DNA of 59,525 nucleotides from NCBI GenBank assembly GCA_008933835.1, contig WBUG01000013.1, positions 1-59,525 of the forward strand, in the 5' to 3' direction. The notes under the pieces are model-generated. The model saw only the letters and a program-made list of their open reading frames with translations, did not search any database and had not been told where the DNA came from. The first letter of the stretch is position 1. Each line of letters opens with the position of its first letter. The DNA comes from Bacteroidota bacterium. Its GTDB lineage: Bacteria; Bacteroidota; Ignavibacteria; UBA10030; UBA8401. The position numbers and the translations under genes were made by a program. Shown here one piece after another: positions 42-14,654 of this stretch.

Positions 42-419
42 ATGCCGAGCCGAATCCTGATCGTCGAAGACGACGCCAACATCGAACACCTGGTCTCCTT
101 CAAGCTCAAGAACTCCGGCTTCACGGTCTTCACGGCCAAAGACGGCCAAAAAGCGCTCGACTTCCTCTCCGCCAATTCCGTCGACCTCATCATCACCGAT
201 ATGATGATGCCGGTGATGGACGGAAAGGAGCTCATCCTGCAGCTCAAGAAACAGCCGAAGACCGCCTCCATCCCCACCATCATGCTCACATCGCGGACGC
301 TCGAGAAGGAGATCGTCGAAGCGTTCTCTCTCGGGGTGGACGACTACATCAAGAAACCGTTCAGTCCGCAGGAACTGGTCGCCCGAATCAAGACCGTGCT
401 GGCCCGCCGGGGGCTCTGA
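42..419 (+). CDS. Receiver-domain response regulator (possibly C-terminal part of a larger protein)
   Basis: A single CheY-like receiver domain of 125 residues fills the protein. The acidic pocket is E9-D10-D11, the phospho-acceptor is D53 in TDMMMP, T83 is the switch residue and K105 lies in KKPF. No output domain follows; the stop is 4 nt before the next gene, so it probably signals into the adjacent polysaccharide operon. The start is doubtful: there is no Shine-Dalgarno sequence before ATG 42, and the same frame stays open to the left edge, reading a Pro/Ala-rich linker-like stretch (GAAPPPETDQST). It may therefore be the C-terminal receiver of a longer sensor or regulator that begins outside the window. 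The receiver call is secure; the start is not. Confidence 0.9.
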   Translation: MPSRILIVEDDANIEHLVSFKLKNSGFTVFTAKDGQKALDFLSANSVDLIITDMMMPVMDGKELILQLKKQPKTASIPTIMLTSRTLEKEIVEAFSLGVDDYIKKPFSPQELVARIKTVLARRGL

Positions 420-423
420 CCCG

Positions 424-1602
424 ATGACCCGTTCCTCCGCCCGCACGCGCCACACCCGCGCCATCATCGCCGGCATCGCGGTCGTTCTCTTCGTCCTCTT
501 CATCGCTCCGTACATCCTCTGGCTCCTCACCCCTCCGACGGACCTCGCCGTCGCGGTCATCGACAAGACCGCCGGAAGCGACCTGCAGGAGCACCGTTCG
601 TTCCTCTGGCTGCTCCGTCACTGGAAGTACCGCCATCCGCAGACGGGCGACCTGTACGAACAGGAGGGGGCGTACTACGGCTTCCATCCGGAGGACAGTT
701 CGTACGACCGTCCCGCCGCGCTCCGACTCGACGGGGCGGATGTCGTGTACGTGACCGATACGTACGGCGTCTTCCGCACCTCCGTTCCGCAGGAGGAGTA
801 CGAAGAGCTCCTGCCGGAACGCTTCATTCCCGGCACGCACCTGTACGGCGGGCTGGACAGCACGGAGCTCTCCGCACTGGAATCATACGCCGCCTCCGGA
901 GGGATGCTCATCGGCGAGTTCAACATCCTGCAGGACCCGCAGGAGCGGAGCGCGGAACTGCGCACCCGTCTCGAACGGCTCTTCGGCGTCCGTTCCACCG
1001 GCATCCTCGGACGGTACTACGAGGACCTGACGGACGCGCCGCTCTGGGTGAAGGAGGCGTACGCGCAGCAGGAGCGGACCGCCTGGCGCCACCGCGGGAA
1101 AGGGATCGTCATCACGCACGAACGCCGCCGCATCGGCGGTCATCCCCGCGTGGTGGTGCTCGGTTCGGAGGACCTGGCGTACAGTCCCGTCTTCCTCCGC
1201 ACGACGGACCACTGGTCCGTCCGTCACGCCGGCGACGACGTGCCGTACTTCCATTTCTTCGAGGTGCTCGGGGTGGAACCGGGGGCGCAGGTGGCGGCCT
1301 ACTTCGACCTCCGCTGTACGCAGCAGGGGAAGGAGAAGCTCATCCGCGATTCCATCCCCCTCTCGTTCCCCGCTGTGGTGGCGGAGGAGCGGACAGCGCC
1401 GCGGTTCTACTTTGCGGGGGATTTCGCCGACAACGCGGTGGAACCGTTCCTCGCACACTACTGGCAGGCGGAGGCGATATTCGGCCGAGCGTATTCGCTC
1501 TATTATATTCCGGACCAGACCCGCTACTTCTGGCGGTTCTACCTGCCGCTGATGCGGGACGTCCTGGACCACGCGGCGTCGCGGCGCCGTACGGACGATT
1601 GA
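424..1602 (+). CDS. Membrane-anchored periplasmic protein of unknown family in an exopolysaccharide operon
   Basis: 392 residues. A basic N-terminus (residues 1-12) precedes one hydrophobic segment (about 13-36, ending in APYILWLL), so by the positive-inside rule the remaining ~350 residues lie outside the cytoplasmic membrane. The soluble part has alternating beta/alpha character (for example DLAVAVIDKT, GADVVYVTDTYG, SGGMLIGEFNIL, PRVVVLGSEDL) that loosely recalls a class-I glutamine-amidotransferase-like fold, but I see no Cys-His catalytic pair and cannot name the family. It sits 4 nt after the receiver gene and 13 nt before the HEAT-repeat gene. By position it could occupy the role that PgaB (periplasmic polymer modification) has in PNAG systems, but nothing in the sequence proves enzymatic activity. 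Confidence 0.8.
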   Translation: MTRSSARTRHTRAIIAGIAVVLFVLFIAPYILWLLTPPTDLAVAVIDKTAGSDLQEHRSFLWLLRHWKYRHPQTGDLYEQEGAYYGFHPEDSSYDRPAALRLDGADVVYVTDTYGVFRTSVPQEEYEELLPERFIPGTHLYGGLDSTELSALESYAASGGMLIGEFNILQDPQERSAELRTRLERLFGVRSTGILGRYYEDLTDAPLWVKEAYAQQERTAWRHRGKGIVITHERRRIGGHPRVVVLGSEDLAYSPVFLRTTDHWSVRHAGDDVPYFHFFEVLGVEPGAQVAAYFDLRCTQQGKEKLIRDSIPLSFPAVVAEERTAPRFYFAGDFADNAVEPFLAHYWQAEAIFGRAYSLYYIPDQTRYFWRFYLPLMRDVLDHAASRRRTDD

Positions 1603-1615
1603 CGGGAGCGGCGCC

Positions 1616-2752
1616 ATGTTCTTCCTTTTCGTCCTCATCACCACCTTCCTCGCCCTCTTCCTGCTGGCCACCGGCGCCATCGGTCTGGTGGTGCACAAGG
1701 TCCGCTCCGGATTCATGGAGACGCGGCGATACGCCTATGACATCACCGCCCGGGAGTTCCTGAACGTCTACCTCTTCTCCGACATCGAACCGGACCCCGC
1801 AGAGCAGCCGGAGCTGTACCAGGAACGCCTGCTGCCGCTGCTCGCACAGCTGCGCACCGACCTGCGGCTCCATTCCGCGTCACGGTCGAACCCGCGCCGC
1901 CGTTCGCTGAAGCGGGTCGCGCTCACCCTTTCGTCCGAGGTCATCGGCGAGACGCGCATCCGCATGACGCGGCTCTTCGATCACTTCGGATTCGTGGACG
2001 ACCTCATCCCGCAGCTCGCCGATTCCGCCTGGTGGGTGCGCGCCAACGCCTGCCGCACGGCGGGACTGATGCGCGCCGAACCGGCGCTGCCGCTGCTGGA
2101 GCGGCTGCTGGACGACGAGAACGAGGACGTCCGCATCGAAGCGGCGCAGGCGATGCTCGACATCGCCGGCGTGGCGGGGCTCGCGCCCGTGCTGATGCGG
2201 CTGCGGGAGCTTTCGCTGTGGATGCAGGTGCGCCTGTCGCGCACCGTGCTGGAGTTCCGCGGCGACGCCGTTCCGCACCTGGTGGTCGGTATCCGCTCGG
2301 AGCATCCCCAGGTGCAGGGTTTTTGCATCGACCTGCTCGGGATGATCGGCGACGTCTCCGCGGTGCCGGTGCTGCTGGAGTACATCTCCTTCGAGGTGCC
2401 GGCGGTGCAGCGCAAGAGCCTCATCGCCTTCGGACGCATCGGCGACGAACGCGCCGTGCCGGTCATCCAGCGCTTCCTCGGCAGTGAGGAGCGCGAACTC
2501 CGTCTCGCGGCGGCCCGTGCGGCCGCGAACCTCGCCTCGCCCGCCATCGCGTACCATCTGCACGCCCTGCTGCTGAAGGACGACACCGAGGTGCGCCTCG
2601 CGGCGGCCGAAGCGCTCGCCCGTTCCGGCGAGACCGGCGTCAAGAGCCTCCTCTACGCCAGCCGGGTGGAGGACCGGAGCGTGCGCCTCATCGCGCTGCA
2701 GTTCCTGCACGACCTCGGCGTGGTGCCGTCCGGGGAAGGGGGCGCCGCATGA
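1616..2752 (+). CDS. Membrane-anchored HEAT-repeat protein
   Basis: 378 residues. An N-terminal hydrophobic segment (about 1-27) is followed by a basic stretch (HKVRSGFMETRR), which places the rest in the cytoplasm. From about residue 120 to the end the protein is a series of ~31-residue helical HEAT/PBS-lyase-type repeats, with recurring patterns such as WWVRANACRTAG, EDVRIEAAQAML, AVQRKSLIAFGRIGD and TEVRLAAAEALARSG. A GGGAG Shine-Dalgarno-like sequence at about 1603-1608 supports the start. The stop overlaps the glycosyltransferase start (ATGA), so the two are translationally coupled. HEAT arrays are protein-binding scaffolds. Here it is a good candidate for a regulatory or assembly partner of the synthase, standing where PgaD or a PilZ module would be expected (inference). 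Confidence 0.88.
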   Translation: MFFLFVLITTFLALFLLATGAIGLVVHKVRSGFMETRRYAYDITAREFLNVYLFSDIEPDPAEQPELYQERLLPLLAQLRTDLRLHSASRSNPRRRSLKRVALTLSSEVIGETRIRMTRLFDHFGFVDDLIPQLADSAWWVRANACRTAGLMRAEPALPLLERLLDDENEDVRIEAAQAMLDIAGVAGLAPVLMRLRELSLWMQVRLSRTVLEFRGDAVPHLVVGIRSEHPQVQGFCIDLLGMIGDVSAVPVLLEYISFEVPAVQRKSLIAFGRIGDERAVPVIQRFLGSEERELRLAAARAAANLASPAIAYHLHALLLKDDTEVRLAAAEALARSGETGVKSLLYASRVEDRSVRLIALQFLHDLGVVPSGEGGAA

Positions 2753-4173
2753 ACGGATTCGCGCGCGAACTGCTGCAGACCCTCCTCATTTCGTACTCCG
2801 GCTTCATCGTCGCGTACTTCGTGGCGGTGAACCTCTTCTACTTCTCGATGCTCGCCATCTCGTTCGGCGCCATCGTCCATTACATCCGGCGGCACCTCTT
2901 CTGCGACTACCGCGTCATCATGCAGTCCGAGTTCTCGCCCGCCATCTCCATCATCGCGCCCGCGTACAACGAGTCCGCCACCTGCATCGAGAGCACCACG
3001 TCGCTGCTCAAGCTCAACTATCCGCAGGCGGAGGTCCTCTTCGTCAACGACGGCAGCCGCGACGACACGCTGGCGGTGATGATGAAACACTTCGACCTCG
3101 TCCGCACCGAACGGGCGTACTTCCCCGCCGTACCGACCAAGGCGGTGAAGGGCATCTACGTCTCGCGCCGTGCCGAGTACCGCTCCCTGGTGGTGGTGGA
3201 CAAGGAGAACGGCGGCAAGGCGGACGCGCTCAACGTCGGCATCAACTGTTCCCGCTACCCGCTCATCTGCGCCATCGACGCGGACTCCATCCTCGAGGAC
3301 GACGCGCTGCTGAAGGTGGCCAAGCCGTTCCTCGACGACGAACGCGTCGTCGCCGTCGGCGGCATCGTCCGCATCGCGAACGGCTGCACCATCGATCGCG
3401 GGCGCGTCATCGACGTGCGCCTCTCGCGCCGCGCGCTGCCGTCGTTCCAGGTGGTCGAGTACTTCCGCGCCTACCTCTCCGGTCGGATGGGGTGGGGGGC
3501 GCTGAACGGCCTGCTCATCATCTCCGGCGCCTTCGGACTGTTCCGCAAGGACATCGTGCTGGCGGTGGGGGGCTACAAGCACGACACGGTGGGGGAGGAC
3601 ATGGAACTCGTGGTGCGGATGCACCGCTACTGCTGCGAACGGGACATCCCGTACCGCGTGGAGTTCGTGCCGGACCCGGTCTGCTGGACCGAAGCGCCCG
3701 AATCGCTCAAGGTGCTCGGCCGTCAGCGCAACCGCTGGCACCGCGGACTCCTCGACACGCTCCTCATCCACCGACGGATGCTCTTCCATCCCACGTACAA
3801 AGTGCTCGGTTGGCTCGCGTTCCCGTACTTCCTCTTCATCGAACTTCTCGGGCCGCTGCTCGAGCTCTTCGGGTACATCGCCGTCATCACCGGGTTCGCC
3901 CTCGGCGTCATCAACGTGCAGATCTTCCTCCTCTTCTTCATGGTGGCGGTGGTCTACGGCGTGATGTTCTCCGTCGGCGCGGTCATCCTCGAGGAGATCT
4001 CCTTCCACCGGTACCCGCGGCTGCGGGACCTGGTGAAGCTGCTCGTCTTCGGCGTCATCGAGAACTTCGGGTACCGCCAGATCACCGTCTGGTGGCGCGT
4101 GAAGTCCTTCTGGGACTACTTCCGCGGGGTGAAGAGCTGGGGCGTCATGACCCGCACCGGTTTCAAGAAGTGA
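2749..4173 (+). CDS. Processive family-2 glycosyltransferase (polysaccharide synthase)
   Basis: 474 residues with the full processive GT2 signature: the nucleotide-binding region SIIAPAYNE (about 67-75), D101 in NDGSRDD, the DAD metal motif at D177-D179, GED at 282-284 and the QxxRW motif at 326-330. Membrane segments flank the catalytic domain: one or two near residues 12-46 and several between about 345 and 425. This is the architecture of PgaC/IcaA, NodC and hyaluronan synthases, which polymerise sugars from UDP-sugars and thread the chain through the inner membrane. No PilZ domain is present, unlike BcsA. It overlaps the HEAT gene by 4 nt and is followed by a YaiO-type outer-membrane barrel. 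The UDP-sugar used cannot be read from sequence; N-acetylglucosamine is plausible given the GH20 gene downstream. Confidence 0.95.
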   Translation: MNGFARELLQTLLISYSGFIVAYFVAVNLFYFSMLAISFGAIVHYIRRHLFCDYRVIMQSEFSPAISIIAPAYNESATCIESTTSLLKLNYPQAEVLFVNDGSRDDTLAVMMKHFDLVRTERAYFPAVPTKAVKGIYVSRRAEYRSLVVVDKENGGKADALNVGINCSRYPLICAIDADSILEDDALLKVAKPFLDDERVVAVGGIVRIANGCTIDRGRVIDVRLSRRALPSFQVVEYFRAYLSGRMGWGALNGLLIISGAFGLFRKDIVLAVGGYKHDTVGEDMELVVRMHRYCCERDIPYRVEFVPDPVCWTEAPESLKVLGRQRNRWHRGLLDTLLIHRRMLFHPTYKVLGWLAFPYFLFIELLGPLLELFGYIAVITGFALGVINVQIFLLFFMVAVVYGVMFSVGAVILEEISFHRYPRLRDLVKLLVFGVIENFGYRQITVWWRVKSFWDYFRGVKSWGVMTRTGFKK

Positions 4174-4214
4174 CGCCGCACCGGACCGAACCTGCATCGA
4201 ACCATGGGGACATC

Positions 4215-5486
4215 ATGAAACGCATCCTGCTGACCTTCCTCCTGGCGCTCGTCACCGCCGCGCCGGCGCAGACCTCCTTCGAGGCGATGGACCCGGACGG
4301 ACTCTTCGCGGCCGCCCGGACGCTGGCGTTCGGCGGACAACGCGCACCCGCCCGGGTGCTGCTGCGCATCGCCCTCGCCAAGGCGCCGGAGTACGCCGAC
4401 GTTCGCATCCTGCTCGCCCGCACGTACGCGTGGGACGGCATGCACGATTCCGCCCGCGCCGAGTTCCGCACGGTGCTCTACCGCGAACAGGACAACCGCG
4501 ACGCCCTCCACGGCGCCATCGACAACGAGACGTGGGCCGGAGAACCGCAGAAGGCCGTCGCCCTGTGCGACCGCGCCCTGCAGTTCTATCCGAAAGACAT
4601 CGACTTCCTGCTGAAGAAGGCGAGGCTCCACTTCGACCGGCAGCAGGACCGCGAAGCGGCCGCCGCCCTCAACCGCATCGCCCGTCTGGACCGCACCAAT
4701 GCTGCCGCCGCGGAACTGCGCCAGGCGATGGCGCTCCAGTCCTCGCTCTTCACGGCGGGGGCCGAGATGACCAACGAATCGTACTCCCGCATCTATTCCC
4801 CCATGCGTTACGCCTCGCTCAGTCTCGGCCGCCGTACGCCGTACGGCGCCGTCATCGTCCGCGTCAACGGGGCGTACCGGTTCGGTTCCGGCGGAATGCA
4901 GGCGGAGGTGGACTGGTACCCCGGGCTCGGCGCGGGGATGTACGGCTACCTCAACTACGGCTACTCCGGCAGTCCCCTCTTCCCGATGCACCGCATCGGC
5001 GCCGAGTTCTTCGCGATGCTTCCGGCCTCCTTCGAGGCTTCGGCGGGGGTGCGCGTGCTGGACTTTGAACCGGGCAGCAGCGCCACGATGTACACCGCGG
5101 CCGTCGGATATTACTACGGTAGCTTCTGGGGCTCGCTGCGCGGATACCTCACGCCGTGGGAACATCCTGACGGCTCGAACGAACTCTCTCCCTCCTACAG
5201 CGCGACGGTGCGGTGGTACCAGGAAGGACCGGACGATTTCTTCAGCTTCCGCGCCCAGGGGGGATTCTCGCCGGACCTCCGCCGCATCCAGTCCGGCGCC
5301 GGCATGACCGGTACCGAGCTCTTCCTGCTCGGCTCGCAGTCCCTCACTCTCGGATGGCAATCGCTGGTGACCGACCGGCTTCTGCTGTCGGTGACCGCCG
5401 ACGCCGCCCGGCAGGAACTGAGTTCGCTGCCGGACGAGTACGTCACCGTCGTGTCGCTCACCGCCGGATTCAAAGTGAGGTTCTGA
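4215..5486 (+). CDS. TPR plus YaiO-type outer-membrane beta-barrel protein
   Basis: 423 residues from the ATG at 4215, chosen because it gives a clean signal peptide (MKRILLTFLLALVTAAPAQ). The frame is open much further upstream, but that part lies inside the glycosyltransferase gene. Residues about 25-170 are TPR-like helices (for example PARVLLRIALAKAPEYADVRILLARTY split over two helices). From about 180 to the end, alternating aromatic beta-strands finish in TAGFKVRF, a typical barrel C-terminus ending in Phe. TPR-plus-barrel is the layout of PgaA and of the YaiO family. In this operon it is the likely outer-membrane export pore or periplasmic guide for the polymer made by the upstream synthase (inference from architecture and position). 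Confidence 0.88.
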   Translation: MKRILLTFLLALVTAAPAQTSFEAMDPDGLFAAARTLAFGGQRAPARVLLRIALAKAPEYADVRILLARTYAWDGMHDSARAEFRTVLYREQDNRDALHGAIDNETWAGEPQKAVALCDRALQFYPKDIDFLLKKARLHFDRQQDREAAAALNRIARLDRTNAAAAELRQAMALQSSLFTAGAEMTNESYSRIYSPMRYASLSLGRRTPYGAVIVRVNGAYRFGSGGMQAEVDWYPGLGAGMYGYLNYGYSGSPLFPMHRIGAEFFAMLPASFEASAGVRVLDFEPGSSATMYTAAVGYYYGSFWGSLRGYLTPWEHPDGSNELSPSYSATVRWYQEGPDDFFSFRAQGGFSPDLRRIQSGAGMTGTELFLLGSQSLTLGWQSLVTDRLLLSVTADAARQELSSLPDEYVTVVSLTAGFKVRF

Positions 5487-5489
5487 ACG

Positions 5490-6302
5490 GTGGACGCTCC
5501 GGCTGAACTCACGCTCCGTCCCATCGGCGTCATCCGCACGCCGTACGTGGACCGCTACCATGCGCCGCGGCAGCCCGGAGCGGGGAAGGAACCGGTCGTC
5601 GGCGTCATCGAGCTGCTGCCGGACCGGAACTTCGACCAGGCGCTGGAGGACCTCGAGGGATTCGAGCGCGTCTGGCTCCTCACGTGGTTCCACCGCAACG
5701 ACGGATGGAAACCGAAGGTGCTCCCTCCCCGCAGCGGACGCACCAAGCGCGGCGTCTTCGCCACCCGCTCGCCGCACCGTCCCAATCCTCTCGGACTCTC
5801 CCTCTGCCGGCTCCTCAGCGTGAAGGGGCGCACGCTCACCGTGGCGGACCCCGACCTGCTGGACGGCACCCCGATTCTCGACATCAAACCGTACCTTCCG
5901 TACGCCGAGGCGTTCCCCGAGGCGGAGATCGGCTGGCTCGCCGAGATCGAGGAGGGTGCGGACGCGCCGTTCTCGGTGGAGGTGTCCGCACTGGCGCGTG
6001 AGCAGGCGGAATGGCTCGAACGGCATCACGGCATCCGCCTGCTCGAGCGGGTGGCGGACATCCTCTCCCACGATCCCTTCCCGCACTCCTACCGCCGCAT
6101 CATGGCGGCGCCGGAGGGAGGGTTCGTCATCGCCGCGAAATCATGGAGAGTGTCGTACGTCGTCGACGCGGACCGCGTCGTCCTCACGGCGGTACGGAGC
6201 GGCTATCCGCCGGAGGTCATCGCCGCGCTCGATCCCTCCGTCGAAACGCTCCACCATCAGCAGGCGCACGTCGGGTTCCACCGGAAATGGATGTCCGCAT
6301 GA
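5490..6302 (+). CDS. trmO: TrmO-like tRNA (t6A37) N6-methyltransferase
   Basis: 270 residues starting at a GTG 3 nt after the preceding stop. The N-terminal ~150 residues are a TsaA/TrmO beta-barrel domain: PIGVIRTPY at the start, the substrate/SAM-pocket stretch ATRSPHRPNPLGLS, and DLLDGTPILDIKPYLPY. TrmO uses S-adenosylmethionine to methylate N6-threonylcarbamoyladenosine at position 37 of tRNA-Thr. The remaining ~110 residues (SALAREQAEWLERHHGI onward) form the C-terminal extension seen in bacterial TrmO. The gene is closely packed with the flanking envelope genes, but the function looks unrelated to them. The ATGA overlap with the next gene implies translational coupling. Confidence 0.9.
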   Translation: MDAPAELTLRPIGVIRTPYVDRYHAPRQPGAGKEPVVGVIELLPDRNFDQALEDLEGFERVWLLTWFHRNDGWKPKVLPPRSGRTKRGVFATRSPHRPNPLGLSLCRLLSVKGRTLTVADPDLLDGTPILDIKPYLPYAEAFPEAEIGWLAEIEEGADAPFSVEVSALAREQAEWLERHHGIRLLERVADILSHDPFPHSYRRIMAAPEGGFVIAAKSWRVSYVVDADRVVLTAVRSGYPPEVIAALDPSVETLHHQQAHVGFHRKWMSA

Positions 6303-7120
6303 CGGCGCGGTTCCGTTCGGTCATCCTCGCCGCCCTCGGCACCCTGTCGTTCCTTCCCGCGCAGACCTTCCGCATCGCCGCCGTGCTGCCCGATTCGGTG
6401 TTCGTCCCGTCGTTCGCGGCGGACGCGCATGCGCACCGGATGAACGTCGAGACCATCGAGCTCTCCCGGAACCTCCGCTCTACCATGGGAGCCGCCATCC
6501 CCGTCGTCCGGTTCGACATCGCGGGAACGCCGTTCCTTGCCTCGCTCGGCGCGTCGGTCCATTTCGAACTCCGCCCCATGGGTCAGGCGCACATCGTCTC
6601 CAACGACTACTATGTGGACTATCTCATCCTCGACGCCCGTCTTGCCGGACCGCACCTCCTCCGGTTCGTCACCGGACATACGAGCCACCATCTCAGCGAC
6701 AATTGGTTCGAACGTCTGCGCATGGGGACGGCGGTGCGGTATTCCCGCGATTACCTGCGACTGTTCTATATCTATAATAGAGAGGACGCTTCGGCGCTCT
6801 TCTACGCCGGCGTCGATTACGCCTACATATTCACGATAGGACGCCGAATCAACGAGCCGTTCACGTTCCAGACCGGCGGCGAGGCGGTGCTCCTTCCGCT
6901 GTGGGACCGGGCGGACCTGTACGGCTCCGCGGATGTGAAACTGCGGCAGGAGGCCGGCTTCGCCGCCACGAACACGCTGCAGCTCGGCGTGCGGTATCGA
7001 ACGGCGAACCATCGGTTCGTGCGGCTCTCGGTGCAGGTGCGGAACGGCCTCGATGAACGGGGACAGTTCTTCCCCGCGCACCGCACGTTCGGCACGCTCG
7101 GGCTCTCGTTCGACCTCTGA
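6299..7120 (+). CDS. DUF1207-like outer-membrane protein
   Basis: 273 residues from ATG 6299, which overlaps the trmO stop and gives a good signal peptide (MTARFRSVILAALGTLSFLPAQ). An in-frame ATG at 6287 is a less likely start. The mature protein is rich in amphipathic beta-strands and ends LGLSFDL, as expected for an outer-membrane barrel. The stretch VPSFAADAHAHRMN near the N-terminus and HTSHHLSDNWFERLR in the middle resemble the conserved signature of DUF1207 proteins, a family of unknown function. I have moderate confidence in the family and good confidence in outer-membrane localisation. Confidence 0.72.
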   Translation: MTARFRSVILAALGTLSFLPAQTFRIAAVLPDSVFVPSFAADAHAHRMNVETIELSRNLRSTMGAAIPVVRFDIAGTPFLASLGASVHFELRPMGQAHIVSNDYYVDYLILDARLAGPHLLRFVTGHTSHHLSDNWFERLRMGTAVRYSRDYLRLFYIYNREDASALFYAGVDYAYIFTIGRRINEPFTFQTGGEAVLLPLWDRADLYGSADVKLRQEAGFAATNTLQLGVRYRTANHRFVRLSVQVRNGLDERGQFFPAHRTFGTLGLSFDL

Positions 7121-7123
7121 GTC

Positions 7124-7154
7124 TTGAGTGTCGCCCCGATTTTCCCCATATTCT
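7124..7154 (+). promoter_or_regulatory. Putative promoter for the hexosaminidase gene
   Basis: TTG at 7124-7126 and CATATTCT at 7147-7154 have the same 23-nt start-to-start spacing as the better promoters in this window. The second element deviates at its first base. It lies in the 72-nt gap before the GH20 gene. Confidence 0.35.
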
Positions 7155-7192
7155 CACGTCGCCCCTTCCATCCACCGATCCGGACCACCGCC

Positions 7193-9712
7193 ATGCTACG
7201 CACCGTTCTCCTCCTTCTCCTCTTCGTTTCGTTCATGACCGCACAATCGCGCATCATCCCGGAGCCGCGCCGCTACACCGAACGCAGCGGCCAGTTCAAG
7301 GTCACCTCCTCCGTCCGCCTCATCCTCGGCTCAGGGGGGACGGGGGAGGAGCGCATCGCGGACGTGCTCAACGGAGAGCTCGGCGAACGTGACGGTCTCT
7401 CTCTCAAGGTATCGGCGGAAGGGTCCCTCCGGCGCTCGTCCGGTCCCTTCATCTTCATAGGACGACCCGGCACCCCCATGGCGAAACGCCTGGCGGCGGA
7501 ACGTTCCATGACCCTCACACCGGAAATGAAGGCGGAAGGGTACTGCATCGACGTCGACGCGAAGGGGGCGGTCATCCTCGCCGAGAGCGAGAAGGGATTG
7601 TTCTACGGTGTGCAGTCGCTGTTGCAGATGCTCCGCCGCGACGGACGCGCGCTCTCCCTCCCCGCGGCGTCGGTCTCGGACCACCCGCTGCAGCGGATGC
7701 GCGGCATCTCGGACGACGTCAGCCGCGGGCAGATCTCCACGGTCGAGAACTTCAAGAAGATCGTCCGCTCCTGCGCGCGGTACAAACTGAACGTCTACAT
7801 GCCGTACATCGAGGATGTCTTCCTCTTCAAGAACCATGCGGCGCTCGGCACGGGGCGCGGCGCGCTGACGGCGAAGGAGTGGAAGGAGGTGGACGACTAT
7901 GCGAAGCGGTGGTTCGTCGAGGTCATCCCTGTCTTCGAAACGCTCGGCCACTGGGAGAACATCCTCATCCATCCGGACTACGTGCGGTACGGAGAGTTCC
8001 CGGGCGCGCACACGGTGAACGTGTCGGACGAGAAGGTCTACGCGATGCTGGACGAGATGATCGGCGAGATGGCCGGCGCGTTCAGCTCGCCGTACTTCCA
8101 CATGGCGGCGGACGAATCGTGGGACGTGGGGCTCGGCGCCAACAAGGAGCGCGTGGCGGCCAGCGACCTTGCCACCGTCCACGCCGAACACTACAAGCGT
8201 CTCTTCGCCCTCATCCGCAAGCACGGGAAACGCCCCGTGATGTACGGCGACGTCATCCTCAACCATCCGGACATCCTGAAGAAGATCCCCAACGACGTCC
8301 TCATCGTCGACTGGGCGTACGGCGCGCGCTTCGATTACTCCAGTCCCGAGGTCTTCCGCGCCGCCGGATTCCCGTTCCTCGTCTCGCCGGCGGTCTGGAA
8401 CTTCACCGGCCCCTTCCCGAACTACCTGAACACGTTCCTCAACATCCAGTCCTTCAGTCTGGACGGCTACCGCAACGGTTCGCAGGGCATCATCTGCTCC
8501 AACTGGAACGACTTCGGCGGCGAGGCGCTGCGGGAACTGAACTACTACGGCTATGCATGGACCGCCGAGTGCGCGTGGAACCCCGTCACCGCGGCGCTGG
8601 AGCCGTTCGACGCCAAATTCTTCGGCGGCTTCTTCGACGCCGAACAGGACGAACTCCGGTCCGTCTACGCGCTCCTCGGCTCCCCCGCCAACCAGTACCA
8701 CTGGTACGAGCTGTGGCGCCATCCCATGCTCCCGAACCGCGACGACATGATCTGGGAGAAGCGCCTGCCGCTCGTGCAGCGGATGCAGAGCATCCGCATG
8801 ACCATGCCGTTCGTGCTCGGGCAGCTCGCCGAAGCGGAACAGGAAGTGACCGTGAACCGGAGCCATCTGCAGTACCTCGCCTTCGCGGCGCGCCTCAACC
8901 TCTGGTTCGCCCGGAAGATCGACGCGCAGGAACGCATCCGCCTGGCGCTGAAGGACACCCTCATGGACTCCGCCGCGAAGGGGACCCTCATCGCCGGACT
9001 CTGCGGCGAGGTCACAGCGGACCTTGCGGCAGTGAAGGAGGAGTTCCGCCGCGTCTGGCTGACGACCAACAAGCCGGAGGGATTGGACCTGCTGCTGAAA
9101 CGGTACGACCGGCAGGCGGCGTACTGGAACGAGATGGCCGCGTCGGTCCGCGCCGGCGACTTCGATCTCGACCCGCAGCTCCGCAGCCAGTGGCTCTACC
9201 ACCCGAAGGCGAATCCCCGGAAGAAGGACTCGCTCCAGGTGAAGAAGGCGTACTTCCGCACCTCCGTTCCGCTCGCCCGCAAAGCCGTCCGGTCGGTGAA
9301 GGTGCAGCTGCTCGGCGACACCTGGGCGGTGCTGTACGTGAACGGCACGAAAGCGGCCGAAGTGATGGGACGTCAGTCCCTCTCGCTGCTGGTCGAGAAC
9401 CGCCGTGCGGTCATCGCTGACGTCGCTCCGCTCGCGAACGATTCGCTGCTCGTCCTCGCCGCGGAGGCGCAGAGCTTCTCCGAGACCGGCTCGGGCGGCG
9501 TCAACGTCATCGGCGAGGTGGTGTATGCCGACGGGGCGGTGCAGGAGTTCCGCTCGGATGCGGCGTGGCTCGCTTCGGACACCGCCGCCGCGGGTTGGAA
9601 CACCACTTCCTTCACGCCGCAGGGGTGGCTTGCCGCCGCGCCGAAACCGTACCCGCTGCCGGTCATCGCACCGGACCTCTCCTCCGGCCGAACGAGCTGG
9701 TACGAGCGCTGA
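7193..9712 (+). CDS. Secreted GH20 beta-N-acetylhexosaminidase with C-terminal beta domain
   Basis: 839 residues. ATG 7193 is chosen for the signal peptide MLRTVLLLLLFVSFMTAQ. Residues about 20-165 match the GH20 N-terminal domain (IIPEPRRY, GYCIDVDAKGAVILAE, GLFYGVQSLLQML). The catalytic barrel follows, with RMRGISDD, FETLGHWEN and the Asp-Glu pair of substrate-assisted catalysis at D307-E308 in HMAADESWD. After a helical region, residues about 690-839 form a beta-rich module with a WAVLYVNGTK stretch that looks like an accessory carbohydrate-binding domain. The enzyme should remove terminal N-acetylhexosamine outside the cytoplasm. Its position a few genes after a PgaC-like synthase suggests processing or recycling of an aminosugar polymer (inference). 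It could equally act on peptidoglycan, chitin or glycoproteins. Confidence 0.9.
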   Translation: MLRTVLLLLLFVSFMTAQSRIIPEPRRYTERSGQFKVTSSVRLILGSGGTGEERIADVLNGELGERDGLSLKVSAEGSLRRSSGPFIFIGRPGTPMAKRLAAERSMTLTPEMKAEGYCIDVDAKGAVILAESEKGLFYGVQSLLQMLRRDGRALSLPAASVSDHPLQRMRGISDDVSRGQISTVENFKKIVRSCARYKLNVYMPYIEDVFLFKNHAALGTGRGALTAKEWKEVDDYAKRWFVEVIPVFETLGHWENILIHPDYVRYGEFPGAHTVNVSDEKVYAMLDEMIGEMAGAFSSPYFHMAADESWDVGLGANKERVAASDLATVHAEHYKRLFALIRKHGKRPVMYGDVILNHPDILKKIPNDVLIVDWAYGARFDYSSPEVFRAAGFPFLVSPAVWNFTGPFPNYLNTFLNIQSFSLDGYRNGSQGIICSNWNDFGGEALRELNYYGYAWTAECAWNPVTAALEPFDAKFFGGFFDAEQDELRSVYALLGSPANQYHWYELWRHPMLPNRDDMIWEKRLPLVQRMQSIRMTMPFVLGQLAEAEQEVTVNRSHLQYLAFAARLNLWFARKIDAQERIRLALKDTLMDSAAKGTLIAGLCGEVTADLAAVKEEFRRVWLTTNKPEGLDLLLKRYDRQAAYWNEMAASVRAGDFDLDPQLRSQWLYHPKANPRKKDSLQVKKAYFRTSVPLARKAVRSVKVQLLGDTWAVLYVNGTKAAEVMGRQSLSLLVENRRAVIADVAPLANDSLLVLAAEAQSFSETGSGGVNVIGEVVYADGAVQEFRSDAAWLASDTAAAGWNTTSFTPQGWLAAAPKPYPLPVIAPDLSSGRTSWYER

Positions 9713-9724
9713 GCAAGAATTCCC

Positions 9725-9754
9725 TTGCATCGCATGGGGTTTCTGCGGTATTAT
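9725..9754 (+). promoter_or_regulatory. Putative promoter for the DUF454 gene
   Basis: TTGCAT at 9725-9730 and TATTAT at 9749-9754 are separated by 18 nt, a good sigma-70-like match. Transcription would begin close to 9762, immediately before a perfect hairpin. Confidence 0.4.
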
Positions 9755-9762
9755 GGGAAATC

Positions 9763-9795
9763 GGACTTCCGAAGCCGCACCGGCTTCGGAAGTCC
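9763..9795 (+). terminator. Perfect 15-bp hairpin (terminator of GH20 gene or 5' leader structure)
   Basis: The arm GGACTTCCGAAGCCG (9763-9777) is exactly complementary to 9781-9795 across a 3-nt loop. The following bases (CGTTGTTG) are not a proper T-tract. It sits between the hexosaminidase stop and the DUF454 start, so it may terminate the former. If the 9725 promoter is real, it would instead form the very 5' end of the downstream mRNA. Confidence 0.6.
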
Positions 9796-9808
9796 CGTTG
9801 TTGATGCC

Positions 9809-10231
9809 ATGACCGACGACACCACCACATCCTCGCTCGCCGCAAAGTACCGTCACCGCCCCCTCGTCCGCTGGACGCTGGTCACGGCGGGCACGGTGCT
9901 TGTCGGCATCGGTATCCTCGGCATCTTCCTGCCGCTCCTTCCCACCACCGTCTTCTTTTTGATGGCGGCCTGGTGCTATGCGCACAGTTCACCCGCATTG
10001 TACGACTGGCTCCACCACAACCGATATTTCGGAAAGTACATCAAAGATTACCGCGAAGGGCGCGGCATCACCGTCCGCTCCAAGGTCTCGTCTATCATCG
10101 TCCTGTGGGCCGGCATCCTGTATTCCGCCTGGTCCGTGGAGGGGCTCGTCCTTCGTCTCGTGCTCGCGGCGGTCGCCGTCGGCGTCACGGTCCATCTCGT
10201 GGTCATCCCGACCAGCCGTTCCTCACAATAA
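9809..10231 (+). CDS. DUF454/YbaN-family small inner-membrane protein
   Basis: 140 residues from ATG 9809. A short basic N-terminus leads into hydrophobic segments at about 24-52 (LVTAGTVLVGIGILGIFLP) and two near the C-terminus (IIVLWAGILYSAW and LVLRLVLAAVAVGVTVHLVVI). The block GIFLPLLPTTVFFLMAAWCY, followed by SSPALYDWLHHNRYFGKYI and DYREGRGI, is the hallmark of the DUF454/YbaN family, whose function is unknown. An in-frame upstream reading exists but runs through the hairpin, so the internal ATG is preferred. It is probably transcribed separately from its neighbours. Confidence 0.85.
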   Translation: MTDDTTTSSLAAKYRHRPLVRWTLVTAGTVLVGIGILGIFLPLLPTTVFFLMAAWCYAHSSPALYDWLHHNRYFGKYIKDYREGRGITVRSKVSSIIVLWAGILYSAWSVEGLVLRLVLAAVAVGVTVHLVVIPTSRSSQ

Positions 10232-10272: not shown

Positions 10273-13200
10273 ATGGTCCGCCTGCTGGCTGTCGCCGCGC
10301 TGTGCTGTTCCCTCGCCGCCGCCCAATCCCTCCGTCCCGCGGAAGGGATCCGTTCCAACACGCCGTCCGTTCATGCGCTCACCGGTCTCACCATCGTGCC
10401 CTCCCCCGGCAAACGGGTGGAGAAGGGGACCATCGTCATCCGCGACGGCGTCATCATCGCCGCGGGTACAGGCGTGACCGTTCCCGCCGATGCGCGGGTG
10501 CGGGACTGCCGCGGACTCACCGCGTACGCCGGTCTCATCGACCTCGCCTCCGAGTACGGCATGCCGAAACCGAAGAGCGGAACGCCGCCGGAGCCGAAAC
10601 GGGGGGCGGCCTCCTGGAACCCGAACGTCGCTGCGGACCGCTCCGCGGCGGACGAGTTCCTGCCGGACCGCGAGTCGGCGGAGAAGTACCGCGCGCAGGG
10701 CTTCACCACGGTGGCGGCGCTTCCATCGTCCGGTATCTTCAAAGGCCGCAGCGCTCTGGTGAACCTCGGCGAAGGAACGGCGAACGCCCAGGTGGTGCGG
10801 AAAGAGCTCTTCCAGCACGTCGCGCTGCAGGGCGCGCCGGCGGACGGTTATCCCGGCTCGCTCATGGGACGCATCGCGCTCGTGCGGCAGACCTTCTCCG
10901 ACGCGCAGTGGTACGCCGCCGCGATGAAACGGTACGCCGCCCGGCCCGACCAGCGGCGTCCGGAGGAGGACCGTACCCTCGCGGCGCTCGACGCGGCCGC
11001 TGCCGGCCGGCAGACGGTCGTCTTCGAGACGGGGGACGAGCTCAACGCGCTGCGCGCCGCCGCCGTCGCGAAGGAGTTCGGTCTCACCGCCGTGCTGCGG
11101 GGGAGCGGATACGAGTACCGCCGCCCGGAAGCGCTGAAGAGCGCTGCGCTGCCGGTCATCGTACCGGTCAACTTCCCGGAACCGCCTTCCCTCGGCACGC
11201 CGGAAGAGATCTTCAACGCGGGGTATGAGGAGCTCCGGCATTGGGACTTCGCACCGGAGAATCCCTCCCGTCTCCGCGCCGCGGGGATCACTGTGGCGCT
11301 CACCGCCGCGCAGCTGAAGGACATTTCGAAGTTCCGTTCGATGGTCGCGCTTTCCGTGGAGGCCGGACTCGATCCTGCGGACGCGCTCGCCGCGCTGACC
11401 ACCGTTCCGGCGTCGCTCGCGGGGATGGAGAAACAGCTCGGCACCATCGAAGCGGGAAAGAACGCGAACCTCGTGCTCACGGATGGAGACCTCTTCTCGA
11501 ACGCCGGCATCGTGCGCGAAACGTGGGTGGACGGTCTCCGCTACGAAGTGAAGTCTCCGCCGCCGGACATCCGCGGCACGTGGTCGTTCACCCTGCGCAC
11601 CGGAGCACGCACGGACACAGGTCGACTCGTCATCACGGGCGGCCGGGATGAGCCGGCCGTACAGTTCCGTTCCGGCGCCCTCACGGTCAAAGCGACCGGC
11701 GTCGCTCTTTCGACGAGGACCTTCTCCTTCTCGCTGCAGGGCGATTCGCTCGGTCACCGCGGCGCTCTCCGCTTCTCCGGTCCGGCCGATTCGCTCAGCG
11801 TGAAAGGACTCGCCGCCGTTCCCGGCGGTGCCGATGCGGACTGGAGGATGGAGCGCTTTGAACCGATGCTCCCGAAAAAGGACTCGGCATCGGCCGCCGC
11901 ACCGCTCCGTGCCGCATTGACGCTTCTGGCGCCGGACGGCGCCTTCGGCCGGACCTCGCTGCCGCCGCAGCAGGACCTCTTCATCCGCGGCGCCACCGTC
12001 TGGACCAGCGGTCCGCAGGGAGTGCTGGAGGATGCCGATGTTCTCATCGTCAAAGGGAAGATCGCGAAGGTCGGGAAGGGATTGTCGCCGACGGCCGGTG
12101 CCGTCGTCGTGGACGGAAAAGGAAAGCACGTCACGCCGGGGCTCATCGATGCCCATTCCCATACCGCAGTGACGGGCGGGGTAAATGAAGGGGGCCAGGC
12201 GGTCACGGCGGAGGTCCGCATCGGCGACGTCCTCAATTCGGACGACATCAACATCTACCGGCAGCTGGCGGGCGGACTCACCGTCGCCAACGTGCTCCAC
12301 GGCTCGGCCAACGCCATCGGCGGACAGAACGCTGTCATCAAACTGCGGTGGGGGATGCTGCCGGAACAGCTGAAGTTCGAAGGGGCGCCGCCCGGCATCA
12401 AGTTCGCGCTCGGCGAGAATCCGAAACAGTCCAACTGGTTCGACGCCGCCAATCCGCGCTATCCGGCCACCCGCATGGGGGTGGAACAGCTCATCCGGGA
12501 CGAGTTCACCGCGGCGCGCGAGTACGATGCGGCGGTGAAGGCGAAACCGTCGGCGGACCGCGTCCCCGTCCGGCGCGACCTGGAACTCGAGGCGGTCGCT
12601 GAGATCCTGCGCGGCGAACGTCTCGTGCATTCCCACTGCTACCGGCAGGACGAGATCCTGATGCTGCTGCGCGTGTCGGACGATTTCGGATTCACCATCG
12701 GCACGCTGCAGCATGCGCTCGAGGCGTACAAGGTGGCGGACGAAGTGGCGAAACGGAAGGTCGGCGCGTCGCTCTTCAGCGACTGGTGGGCGTACAAGGC
12801 GGAGGTGATGGACGCCATCCCGTACGCCGGACAATTGCTGCACGACGCGGGCGTGCTCGTCTCGTACAATTCGGACAGCAACGAGATGGCGCGGCGGATG
12901 AACCTCGAGGCGGCCAAGGCGGTCCGCTACGGCGGCGTCAGTGAGACCGACGCGCTCGCCTTCGTCACCATCAATCCGGCCAGGCAACTCCGCATCGACC
13001 GCCGCGTCGGTTCGCTCGAACCGGGAAAGGACGGCGACGTGGTCGTGTGGAGCGGACATCCCCTCTCCACCTTCTCCGTCTGCGAACAGACGTACATCGA
13101 GGGACGCCGGTTCTTCGACCGTGCGGAGGACCTCCGGATGCGGGCGGACATCGCCGCCGCGAAAGCGGAACTGGTGCAGAAGGCGCTCCGCGCCCCGAAG

Positions 13201-13302
13201 CGGGGGAGCGGAGCATCGACGCCGATGCCGCAGCGGAGCAGCGTCTATTCCTGCCACGAAGAGCACGGCGCCGACACGGCCGCCGAACAGGAGGGCCGTT
13301 GA
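10273..13302 (+). CDS. Exported double-domain amidohydrolase-family protein (first domain degenerate)
   Basis: 1009 residues from ATG 10273, which has an AGAGG ribosome-binding site just upstream and a signal peptide (MVRLLAVAALCCSLAAAQ). Two amidohydrolase units are visible. The first (about 30-430) has the small beta sandwich and the closing signature GTIEAGKNANLVLTDGD, but the expected HxH metal site is replaced (AGLIDLASE). A beta-rich linker covers about 430-540. The second unit keeps H628 and H630 in LIDAHSHT, H786/H788 in VHSHCYRQDE, an NSDSNE segment for the catalytic Asp region, and GSLEPGKDGDVVVW. It should be a metal-dependent hydrolase of an imidazolonepropionase/dipeptidase-like type acting outside the cytoplasm. 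The substrate is unknown. The partner gene begins 3 nt downstream. Confidence 0.88.
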   Translation: MVRLLAVAALCCSLAAAQSLRPAEGIRSNTPSVHALTGLTIVPSPGKRVEKGTIVIRDGVIIAAGTGVTVPADARVRDCRGLTAYAGLIDLASEYGMPKPKSGTPPEPKRGAASWNPNVAADRSAADEFLPDRESAEKYRAQGFTTVAALPSSGIFKGRSALVNLGEGTANAQVVRKELFQHVALQGAPADGYPGSLMGRIALVRQTFSDAQWYAAAMKRYAARPDQRRPEEDRTLAALDAAAAGRQTVVFETGDELNALRAAAVAKEFGLTAVLRGSGYEYRRPEALKSAALPVIVPVNFPEPPSLGTPEEIFNAGYEELRHWDFAPENPSRLRAAGITVALTAAQLKDISKFRSMVALSVEAGLDPADALAALTTVPASLAGMEKQLGTIEAGKNANLVLTDGDLFSNAGIVRETWVDGLRYEVKSPPPDIRGTWSFTLRTGARTDTGRLVITGGRDEPAVQFRSGALTVKATGVALSTRTFSFSLQGDSLGHRGALRFSGPADSLSVKGLAAVPGGADADWRMERFEPMLPKKDSASAAAPLRAALTLLAPDGAFGRTSLPPQQDLFIRGATVWTSGPQGVLEDADVLIVKGKIAKVGKGLSPTAGAVVVDGKGKHVTPGLIDAHSHTAVTGGVNEGGQAVTAEVRIGDVLNSDDINIYRQLAGGLTVANVLHGSANAIGGQNAVIKLRWGMLPEQLKFEGAPPGIKFALGENPKQSNWFDAANPRYPATRMGVEQLIRDEFTAAREYDAAVKAKPSADRVPVRRDLELEAVAEILRGERLVHSHCYRQDEILMLLRVSDDFGFTIGTLQHALEAYKVADEVAKRKVGASLFSDWWAYKAEVMDAIPYAGQLLHDAGVLVSYNSDSNEMARRMNLEAAKAVRYGGVSETDALAFVTINPARQLRIDRRVGSLEPGKDGDVVVWSGHPLSTFSVCEQTYIEGRRFFDRAEDLRMRADIAAAKAELVQKALRAPKRGSGASTPMPQRSSVYSCHEEHGADTAAEQEGR

Positions 13303-13304
13303 CC

Positions 13305-14654
13305 ATGAAGACCGTCGAAATGTACATCCATCATCCATCATCCATGTTCCATTCTTCCGTTGTTTTCATCCTCGCTCTCTTCGTTTCCGTCGCATCGGCC
13401 TCCTCTCCCGTTCCGGGAAAGCGGCAGACGCGTCCCGTGGCGCTCGTCGGCGGCACGGTGCACACCGTCGCGGCGGGTGACATCGAACGGGGGACGGTCC
13501 TCTTCGAGAACGGGGTCATCACCGCGGTCGGGGCGTCGGTGACCGTTCCCGCGGACGCCGAACGCATCGACGTCACCGGCAGGCACGTCTATCCCGGGCT
13601 CATCAACGCGTCGTCCGCCGCCGGACTGCAGGAGATCGAAGCGGTGCGCGCCACGGTGGACGTCGCCGAGACCGGTCGCATCAATCCGAACGTTCGGGCG
13701 GAGGTGGCGGTCAATCCGGAGAGCGACGTCATTCCCACCATCCGCGCGAACGGCGTCGCGCTCTCGCACGTGATGCCCTCCGGCGCCCTCATCGCCGGAT
13801 GCAGTGCCGTGATGATGATGGACGGATGGACGAACGGGGAGATGACATTGAAGGCGCCGACCGGAATGGTCGTCACCTGGCCGTCCATGACGGTGTCGCG
13901 CTCTCCGTACGCGCGGCAGAGCGAAGAGGAGCAGCGGGCGGCGGTGGAGCGTTCCCTCGCCGAACTCCGCAACGCGTTCGACGATGCGCGTGCGTACCTC
14001 GCCGCGAAGAAGAACGCGCCGTCGGCGCACCGTACCGACGTGCGGTGGGAGGCGATGGCGCCGCTGTTCGACCGAACGATGCCGCTCATCGTCGAAGCGG
14101 ACGAACTGCAGCAGGTGCAGGCGGCCGTACAGTTCGCACGGGCGCAGAACGTCCGGCTCATCATCCACGGCGGGCGCGACGCATGGAAGGCGGCGCCGCT
14201 GCTCCGCGAGAACGGCGTCGCGGTCATCGTGGGGGCGGCGCATGCGCTGCCGTCGCGCCGCTGGTCCGATTACGACGAACCGTTCGTGACGGCCCGCCGT
14301 CTCGCCGATGCAGGCATCCTCATCGCGCTGGCGGGCGACGGCAACGGCGCGATGATCGAACGCAATCTCGGCTTCCAGGCCGCGACCTCGTCGGCGTTCG
14401 GACTGACGCGGGAGCAAACGCTCCGGGCGGTCACGCTCGACGCCGCCCGGGTGCTGGGCGTGGCGGACCGTGTCGGTTCCATCGAAACCGGGAAGGACGC
14501 AACGCTCATCGTAACGGACGGGGATCCTTTGGAAATTCGCTCCGCGGTGACGATGATGTTTTTACAGGGAAAAACGGTGGAATTGGAGAGCCGGCATACC
14601 CGATTGTGGAAGAAATATATAGAGAAATACCGGCGGCAGGCGGTCGGTCAGTGA
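13305..14654 (+). CDS. Exported amidohydrolase-like protein lacking the canonical HxH site
   Basis: 449 residues from ATG 13305, supported by an AGGAGG-like sequence at about 13290. A start at ATG 13344 would give a cleaner signal peptide (MFHSSVVFILALFVSVASA), so the N-terminus is uncertain. It resembles the first half of the preceding protein: beta sandwich (VALVGGTVHTVAAGDIERG), YPGLINASSAAG where an HxH would normally stand, and GSIETGKDATLIVTDGDPL at the end of the fold. With no HxH it is probably a non-canonical or non-catalytic member that works with its larger neighbour. The large/small pairing of such proteins is, to my knowledge, common in Bacteroidota. Function is not assigned. Confidence 0.83.
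   Translation: MKTVEMYIHHPSSMFHSSVVFILALFVSVASASSPVPGKRQTRPVALVGGTVHTVAAGDIERGTVLFENGVITAVGASVTVPADAERIDVTGRHVYPGLINASSAAGLQEIEAVRATVDVAETGRINPNVRAEVAVNPESDVIPTIRANGVALSHVMPSGALIAGCSAVMMMDGWTNGEMTLKAPTGMVVTWPSMTVSRSPYARQSEEEQRAAVERSLAELRNAFDDARAYLAAKKNAPSAHRTDVRWEAMAPLFDRTMPLIVEADELQQVQAAVQFARAQNVRLIIHGGRDAWKAAPLLRENGVAVIVGAAHALPSRRWSDYDEPFVTARRLADAGILIALAGDGNGAMIERNLGFQAATSSAFGLTREQTLRAVTLDAARVLGVADRVGSIETGKDATLIVTDGDPLEIRSAVTMMFLQGKTVELESRHTRLWKKYIEKYRRQAVGQ

Follow-up and report, generated by a model that had tools for sequence, protein, structure and literature searches.

Five consecutive genes at the left end of the window (the whole 59,525-nt stretch of DNA analysed here, beginning with the first base of its contig) raise the question of whether they encode a Pga-like exopolysaccharide system, as the original prediction proposed, or polysaccharide machinery of another kind. 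Gene content, conservation, the HEAT–GT2 linkage and fusions, predicted folds, and the absence of a sulfatase, all obtained by computation, indicate that the operon (Table 1) probably encodes a hitherto uncharacterised machinery for the synthase-dependent production of an exopolysaccharide (or surface glycan). Its GT2 synthase would be controlled by a receiver together with a HEAT-repeat protein anchored in the membrane.

Table 1. Features of the candidate operon, in window coordinates.
Feature	Position	Strand	Remarks
Stand-alone response-regulator receiver, 125 aa	42..419	+	No output domain; phosphoacceptor residues intact; Response_reg
PER: N-terminal TM anchor and predicted extracytoplasmic GATase1/ThuA-like domain, 392 aa	424..1602	+	AF2 model, Foldseek; widespread family without a Pfam model
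Single-TM HEAT-repeat protein, predicted cytosolic, 378 aa	1616..2752	+	HEAT_2; near-invariant GT2 partner
Predicted membrane GT2 polysaccharide synthase, 474 aa	2749..4173	+	All processive-GT2 motifs; subfamily HMM; fold of a family member
Sulfatase slot, empty here	4174..4214	+	In close relatives, LTA-synthase-like sulfatase and TPR gene, ~800-830 aa
Signal peptide, TPR, and YaiO outer-membrane beta-barrel protein, 423 aa	4215..5486	+	YaiO PF19413, TIGR04390

All five open reading frames lie on the plus strand and are separated by gaps of 4, 13, −4 (an ATGA overlap), and 41 nt; reading of these frames with Pfam and NCBIfam (Pfam E-values of 1.6e-28 for Response_reg, 9e-31 for HEAT_2, 2e-23 for Glyco_tranf_2_3, and 5e-48 for YaiO PF19413) bore out the one tight unit, with these spacings, that had been predicted. 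The order receiver–PER–HEAT–GT2–YaiO is kept in the close relatives L022 and L028 (two copies of one record) and, with a sulfatase gene inserted between GT2 and YaiO, in L019, L023, and L024; receiver–HEAT–GT2–(sulfatase)–YaiO is the common arrangement in other Bacteroidota. The gene preceding the receiver in family relatives is unrelated or on the opposite strand. A chance neighbourhood was ruled out by the conservation of the unit in relatives across several phyla. Downstream of the operon (5490-10231), the window encodes TrmO, an outer-membrane-barrel-like protein, a GH20 beta-N-acetylhexosaminidase, and a DUF454 protein, an order nearly kept in family relatives (L022 and, partly, L019).

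The HEAT–GT2 core of this unit has stayed intact in widely differing bacteria, including Bacteroidota, Bacillota, Spirochaetota, and others. In a Bacteroidota sample (294 genomes of the class), a HEAT homologue was found directly upstream of a GT2 homologue, on the same strand, in 21 of the 21 genomes with a close HEAT homologue, the window's own genome among these 21. Among 93 loci with enough flanking sequence, representing several phyla, HEAT was adjacent to GT2 in 83 and fused to it in nine (92/93); the co-occurrence elsewhere on which the original prediction depended was thus found as a conserved neighbourhood. Some of these loci were found via PER; loci L135–L166, mostly chosen by GT2 alone, presented the same HEAT linkage. 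The fusions are single polypeptides of ~1,015 aa, eight from Spirochaetota and one from a clostridial MAG. The sole exception among the 93 loci, L061, has no HEAT gene directly before GT2; this locus also encodes, on the minus strand (11183-14464), a sulfatase with an N-terminal part scoring on the HEAT profile. A Deinococcus plasmid carries genes for a TPR/GH-A-like protein, HEAT, and GT2 side by side. Because several further HEAT proteins are encoded in the window genome, the pairing with GT2 is not for want of alternatives. In the window, the HEAT gene lies directly upstream of a GT2 of the subfamily, with a 4-nt overlap, and thus forms a HEAT–GT2 unit as defined here (HEAT directly upstream of, or fused to, a subfamily GT2). 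The HEAT protein carries a TM segment at residues 1–19 with basic residues after it, a charge pattern suggesting that the protein faces the cytosol.

The window GT2 contains the motifs NDGS, ENGGKAD, DADS, GED, and QRNRW, and therefore the D, DxD, GED (TED), and Q(R/Q)xRW elements of a processive membrane GT2 synthase; the full motif set claimed for this protein was thus confirmed. Its fold was taken from a model of a spirochaete HEAT–GT2 fusion (L056; pLDDT 83, pTM 0.77), for which hyaluronan synthase was the best structural match, followed by BcsA and chitin synthases; this model comes without inter-domain error values, so that no HEAT–GT2 contact is claimed from it. On a profile of the subfamily, members scored 544–736 bits, as compared to 131 for E. 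coli PgaC, 61 for YaiP, and 39 for BcsA. The gap between the lowest member (544) and the non-members (147 and below) was used to delimit the subfamily because the GT2 tree presented very long outgroup branches, with root and monophyly without support. Motifs, subfamily profile, and fold predict an enzyme of the polymerising membrane type (HAS/BcsA/chitin synthase fold), with processivity predicted by structure and motifs. Clustering with non-polymerising glycosyltransferases, which the original prediction had named as evidence against itself, was tested and did not occur; a non-polymerising enzyme was rejected on the motifs and the HAS/BcsA/chitin-synthase-like fold. Subfamily members were found in 71 of 296 sampled Bacteroidota genomes (about a quarter), as well as in Bacillota and Spirochaetota. 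The chosen loci come from 36 genomes or records (35 PER-bearing genomes and the Deinococcus plasmid), of which 35 have the GT2 and one, a PER genome, lacks it.

PER presented no match over any cut-off in Pfam and NCBIfam, and a sequence-profile search of the PDB yielded chance matches only. An AF2 model of the window PER (pLDDT 91.8, pTM 0.91) had GH42 enzymes, ThuA-like proteins, and GATase1-like proteins as its best Foldseek matches in the PDB (E about 1e-4, TM-scores 0.30-0.35); because these TM-scores are low, the confidently predicted GATase1/ThuA-like fold is assigned as a broad class. Cys is absent among the conserved residues of the family, making an amidotransferase triad unlikely. 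The charge pattern around the TM segment (residues 14–32) suggests that PER faces outward. PER relatives include 178 in species genomes (Bacillota, Spirochaetota, Bacteroidota, Acidobacteriota, Gemmatimonadota, and others), as well as some in archaeal MAGs; none were found on viral contigs. The archaeal occurrences (L105 and L084; Methanomicrobia and Methanofastidiosia) reflect either transfer or a binning error, and the L105 genome also holds a GT2 of the HEAT-linked subfamily. PER was present in 11 of 296 Bacteroidota genomes, every one of which also has the GT2 (found in 71; P = 8e-8, with genomes counted regardless of shared ancestry). Many Bacillota and Spirochaetota have PER joined to a further domain, which gives weak Pfam hits to GH113, GH72, and GH2, all families of clan GH-A; PER thus likely acts on the emerging glycan, by binding or cutting. 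No match to this GH-A-like domain was found in the window's own genome. PER genes are located apart from HEAT–GT2 in L025 (9669-10847), L043, and L163, with a GT2 elsewhere in those genomes; PER may have a wider role.

The sulfatase of the relatives is a membrane protein with a sulfatase fold; it belongs to the LTA-synthase/phosphoethanolamine-transferase type, carries TPRs at its C-terminus, and is fused to GT2 in L146–L149 (other Bacteroidota); sulfatases of this kind are polymer-decorating enzymes. The gene is absent from the window genome, where a whole-assembly search matched TPR stretches only, and its absence could mean that the system is degenerate here. The last gene of the operon encodes the sole YaiO domain of the window genome (TIGR04390, 143 bits against a cut-off of 32; PF19413, 164 against 24), with a small barrel domain of about 240 aa. 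We know of no export function for E. coli YaiO. Gram-positive bacteria have no outer membrane, and the Gram-positive family members are without any outer-membrane protein. In the window organism, the polymer may be exported through YaiO.

The receiver keeps E9/D10, D53, T83, and K104 (a Pfam match with the conserved Asp/Thr/Lys phosphosite), and a stand-alone receiver occupies the same slot in L019–L024 and many Bacteroidota. A REC domain was found within 6 kb in 75 of 92 loci; the position of the receiver varies, and some loci (L110 and L154) have none. In many relatives, a GGDEF–receiver protein fills this slot; in several Bacillota this protein retains an intact GGEEF, and in Spirochaetota it has no GGDEF motif. 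Elsewhere, a stand-alone receiver is located beside a hybrid kinase/Hpt protein, and histidine kinase/Hpt phosphorelay genes occur at several loci. Receivers, GGDEF–receivers, and kinase/Hpt neighbours together suggest that phosphorelay input is general in the family and that c-di-GMP likely plays a part in some of its members. The proposal that a receiver replaces c-di-GMP control may thus hold for part of the family at most; other members have the GGDEF–receiver protein in the slot, some with an intact GGEEF. In spirochaetes, at L056 and further loci, the HEAT–GT2 fusion is preceded by a regulator (5116-6894 in L056) that combines a flavodiiron-type ODP domain, a degenerate GGDEF domain, and a receiver.

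In the Pga system, PgaC requires the small membrane protein PgaD and c-di-GMP, and in the Bcs system cellulose is modified by the phosphoethanolamine transferase BcsG (PMC8461298). A systematic survey of synthase-dependent exopolysaccharides lists five (cellulose, acetylated cellulose, PNAG, alginate, and Pel); the HEAT–GT2 unit is not among them, and the survey text mentions neither HEAT nor YaiO (PMC7112194). Membership tests, which covered Pga and Bcs, suggest that the unit works like these systems yet belongs to neither. It resembles PgaABCD (PNAG, E. coli) in its nearest curated GT2 family, a TPR and beta-barrel protein, an extracytoplasmic processing protein, and a membrane partner of the GT2, but has HEAT for PgaD (an analogy of position only), a GATase1-like protein for the deacetylase/glycosidase, and a receiver, to which relatives add the sulfatase-like enzyme. 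Bcs shares a HAS/BcsA-type membrane synthase and, in BcsG and the TPR-barrel exporter, functional analogues; membership was rejected because the window GT2 scored 44.5 bits against a CelA cut-off of 699 and the unit is without PilZ, BcsB, and BcsZ, having a HEAT partner instead. In E. coli yaiO-yaiX-yaiP-yaiS, the YaiO barrel also adjoins a GT2; however, YaiP reached only 61 bits on the subfamily profile, and that cluster lacks HEAT, receiver, and PER and has the deacetylase YaiS and the acyltransferase YaiX instead. Hyaluronan synthase (Chlorella virus, Xenopus) provides the closest solved fold of the GT2 half but is a single-protein system without HEAT, receiver, or exporter.

It is highly improbable that the operon is a divergent but genuine Pga/PNAG operon with PgaB and PgaD drifted beyond recognition. 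While, among curated models, the PgaC/IcaA equivalog TIGR03937 fits the GT2 best, and both a TPR-barrel protein and a downstream GH20 beta-N-acetylhexosaminidase are present, the GT2 scored 141.5 bits against a cut-off of 422, the TPR porin scored 14.4 bits against 367 on the PgaA equivalog TIGR03939, and E. coli PgaC falls far below subfamily members on their own profile. Moreover, PER has no deacetylase domain, PgaB being a periplasmic polysaccharide deacetylase/glycosidase, and HEAT is a predicted cytosolic repeat protein, unlike the small two-TM PgaD; with the PgaC, PgaA, and PgaB tests all failing, Pga membership was rejected. Of the Pga-like division of labour originally proposed, a synthase-dependent unit of GT2, extracytoplasmic protein, TPR-barrel, and HEAT partner, conserved elsewhere, stands, and the observation is stronger than claimed; the slot-by-slot reading is partly right, as a one-to-one match to the Pga slots was not found. 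In particular, PER is not a deacetylase of the PgaB type, given its predicted fold, and the usual modifying enzyme of the family is the LTA-synthase-like sulfatase.

Somewhat less remote, though still unlikely, is that the product of the GT2 is not a free exopolysaccharide but an anchored polymer of teichoic-like or glycolipid nature (phosphoglycerol-decorated), with YaiO as an outer-membrane anchor or remodeler and not a pore. The LTA-synthase-like sulfatase in relatives' operons, including its GT2 fusions, and the Gram-positive members without outer-membrane proteins fit this reading; however, the sulfatase is missing from the window, the predicted GT2 fold is that of a synthase/translocase, and BcsG, of the same general enzyme type, decorates the secreted polymer cellulose, so that the enzyme class does not decide between the two. 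Doubtful, but to be taken more seriously than either, is a role of HEAT and receiver as a scaffold for assembly or positioning that carries no signal, with expression, or c-di-GMP elsewhere, controlling synthesis. As scaffolds, HEAT repeats are generic; the receiver is variable in position and absent at some loci, and GGDEF partners occur in many lineages; against this stand the frequency of REC domains near the loci, the phosphorelay genes beside the receiver at several of them, and the intact phosphosite of the window receiver.

A polysaccharide system is favoured by the GT2 motifs and fold, the HEAT linkage, the PER–GT2 co-occurrence, the sulfatase in or fused to the unit, and the PER–GH-A-like fusions. 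In this exopolysaccharide system, the GT2 would polymerise a nucleotide-sugar at the cytosolic side and push the growing chain through its own membrane channel. HEAT, with a single N-terminal helix as its membrane anchor and with cytosolic repeats, and presumably in direct contact with the GT2, would be its obligate partner, and the phosphorylated receiver (in other lineages, the GGDEF–receiver protein) may act via HEAT, switching synthesis or localising it. On the outer side of the membrane, PER with its anchor and its GATase1-like domain would bind or process the nascent chain, which the sulfatase-like enzyme of relatives would decorate; the YaiO protein would carry the chain to the outer membrane by way of its periplasmic TPRs.

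A search of mainly open-access literature found no description of a HEAT–GT2 or YaiO–HEAT system and no paper tying a HEAT-repeat protein to a polysaccharide synthase. As far as the open literature shows, the family is undescribed; it would be a widespread variant of polysaccharide secretion by a synthase, one that has a HEAT protein as near-invariant partner. A bolder and less likely reading is that HEAT serves as an allosteric adaptor through which the phosphorylation state of a stand-alone receiver reaches the synthase directly. The GT2 polymerase would then be under post-translational phosphorelay control, with no c-di-GMP, in a HEAT–GT2 machine shared by Bacteroidota, Bacillota, Spirochaetota, and others. 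Culturable hosts are available for seeking a new surface polymer and for testing receiver-driven control of a synthase.
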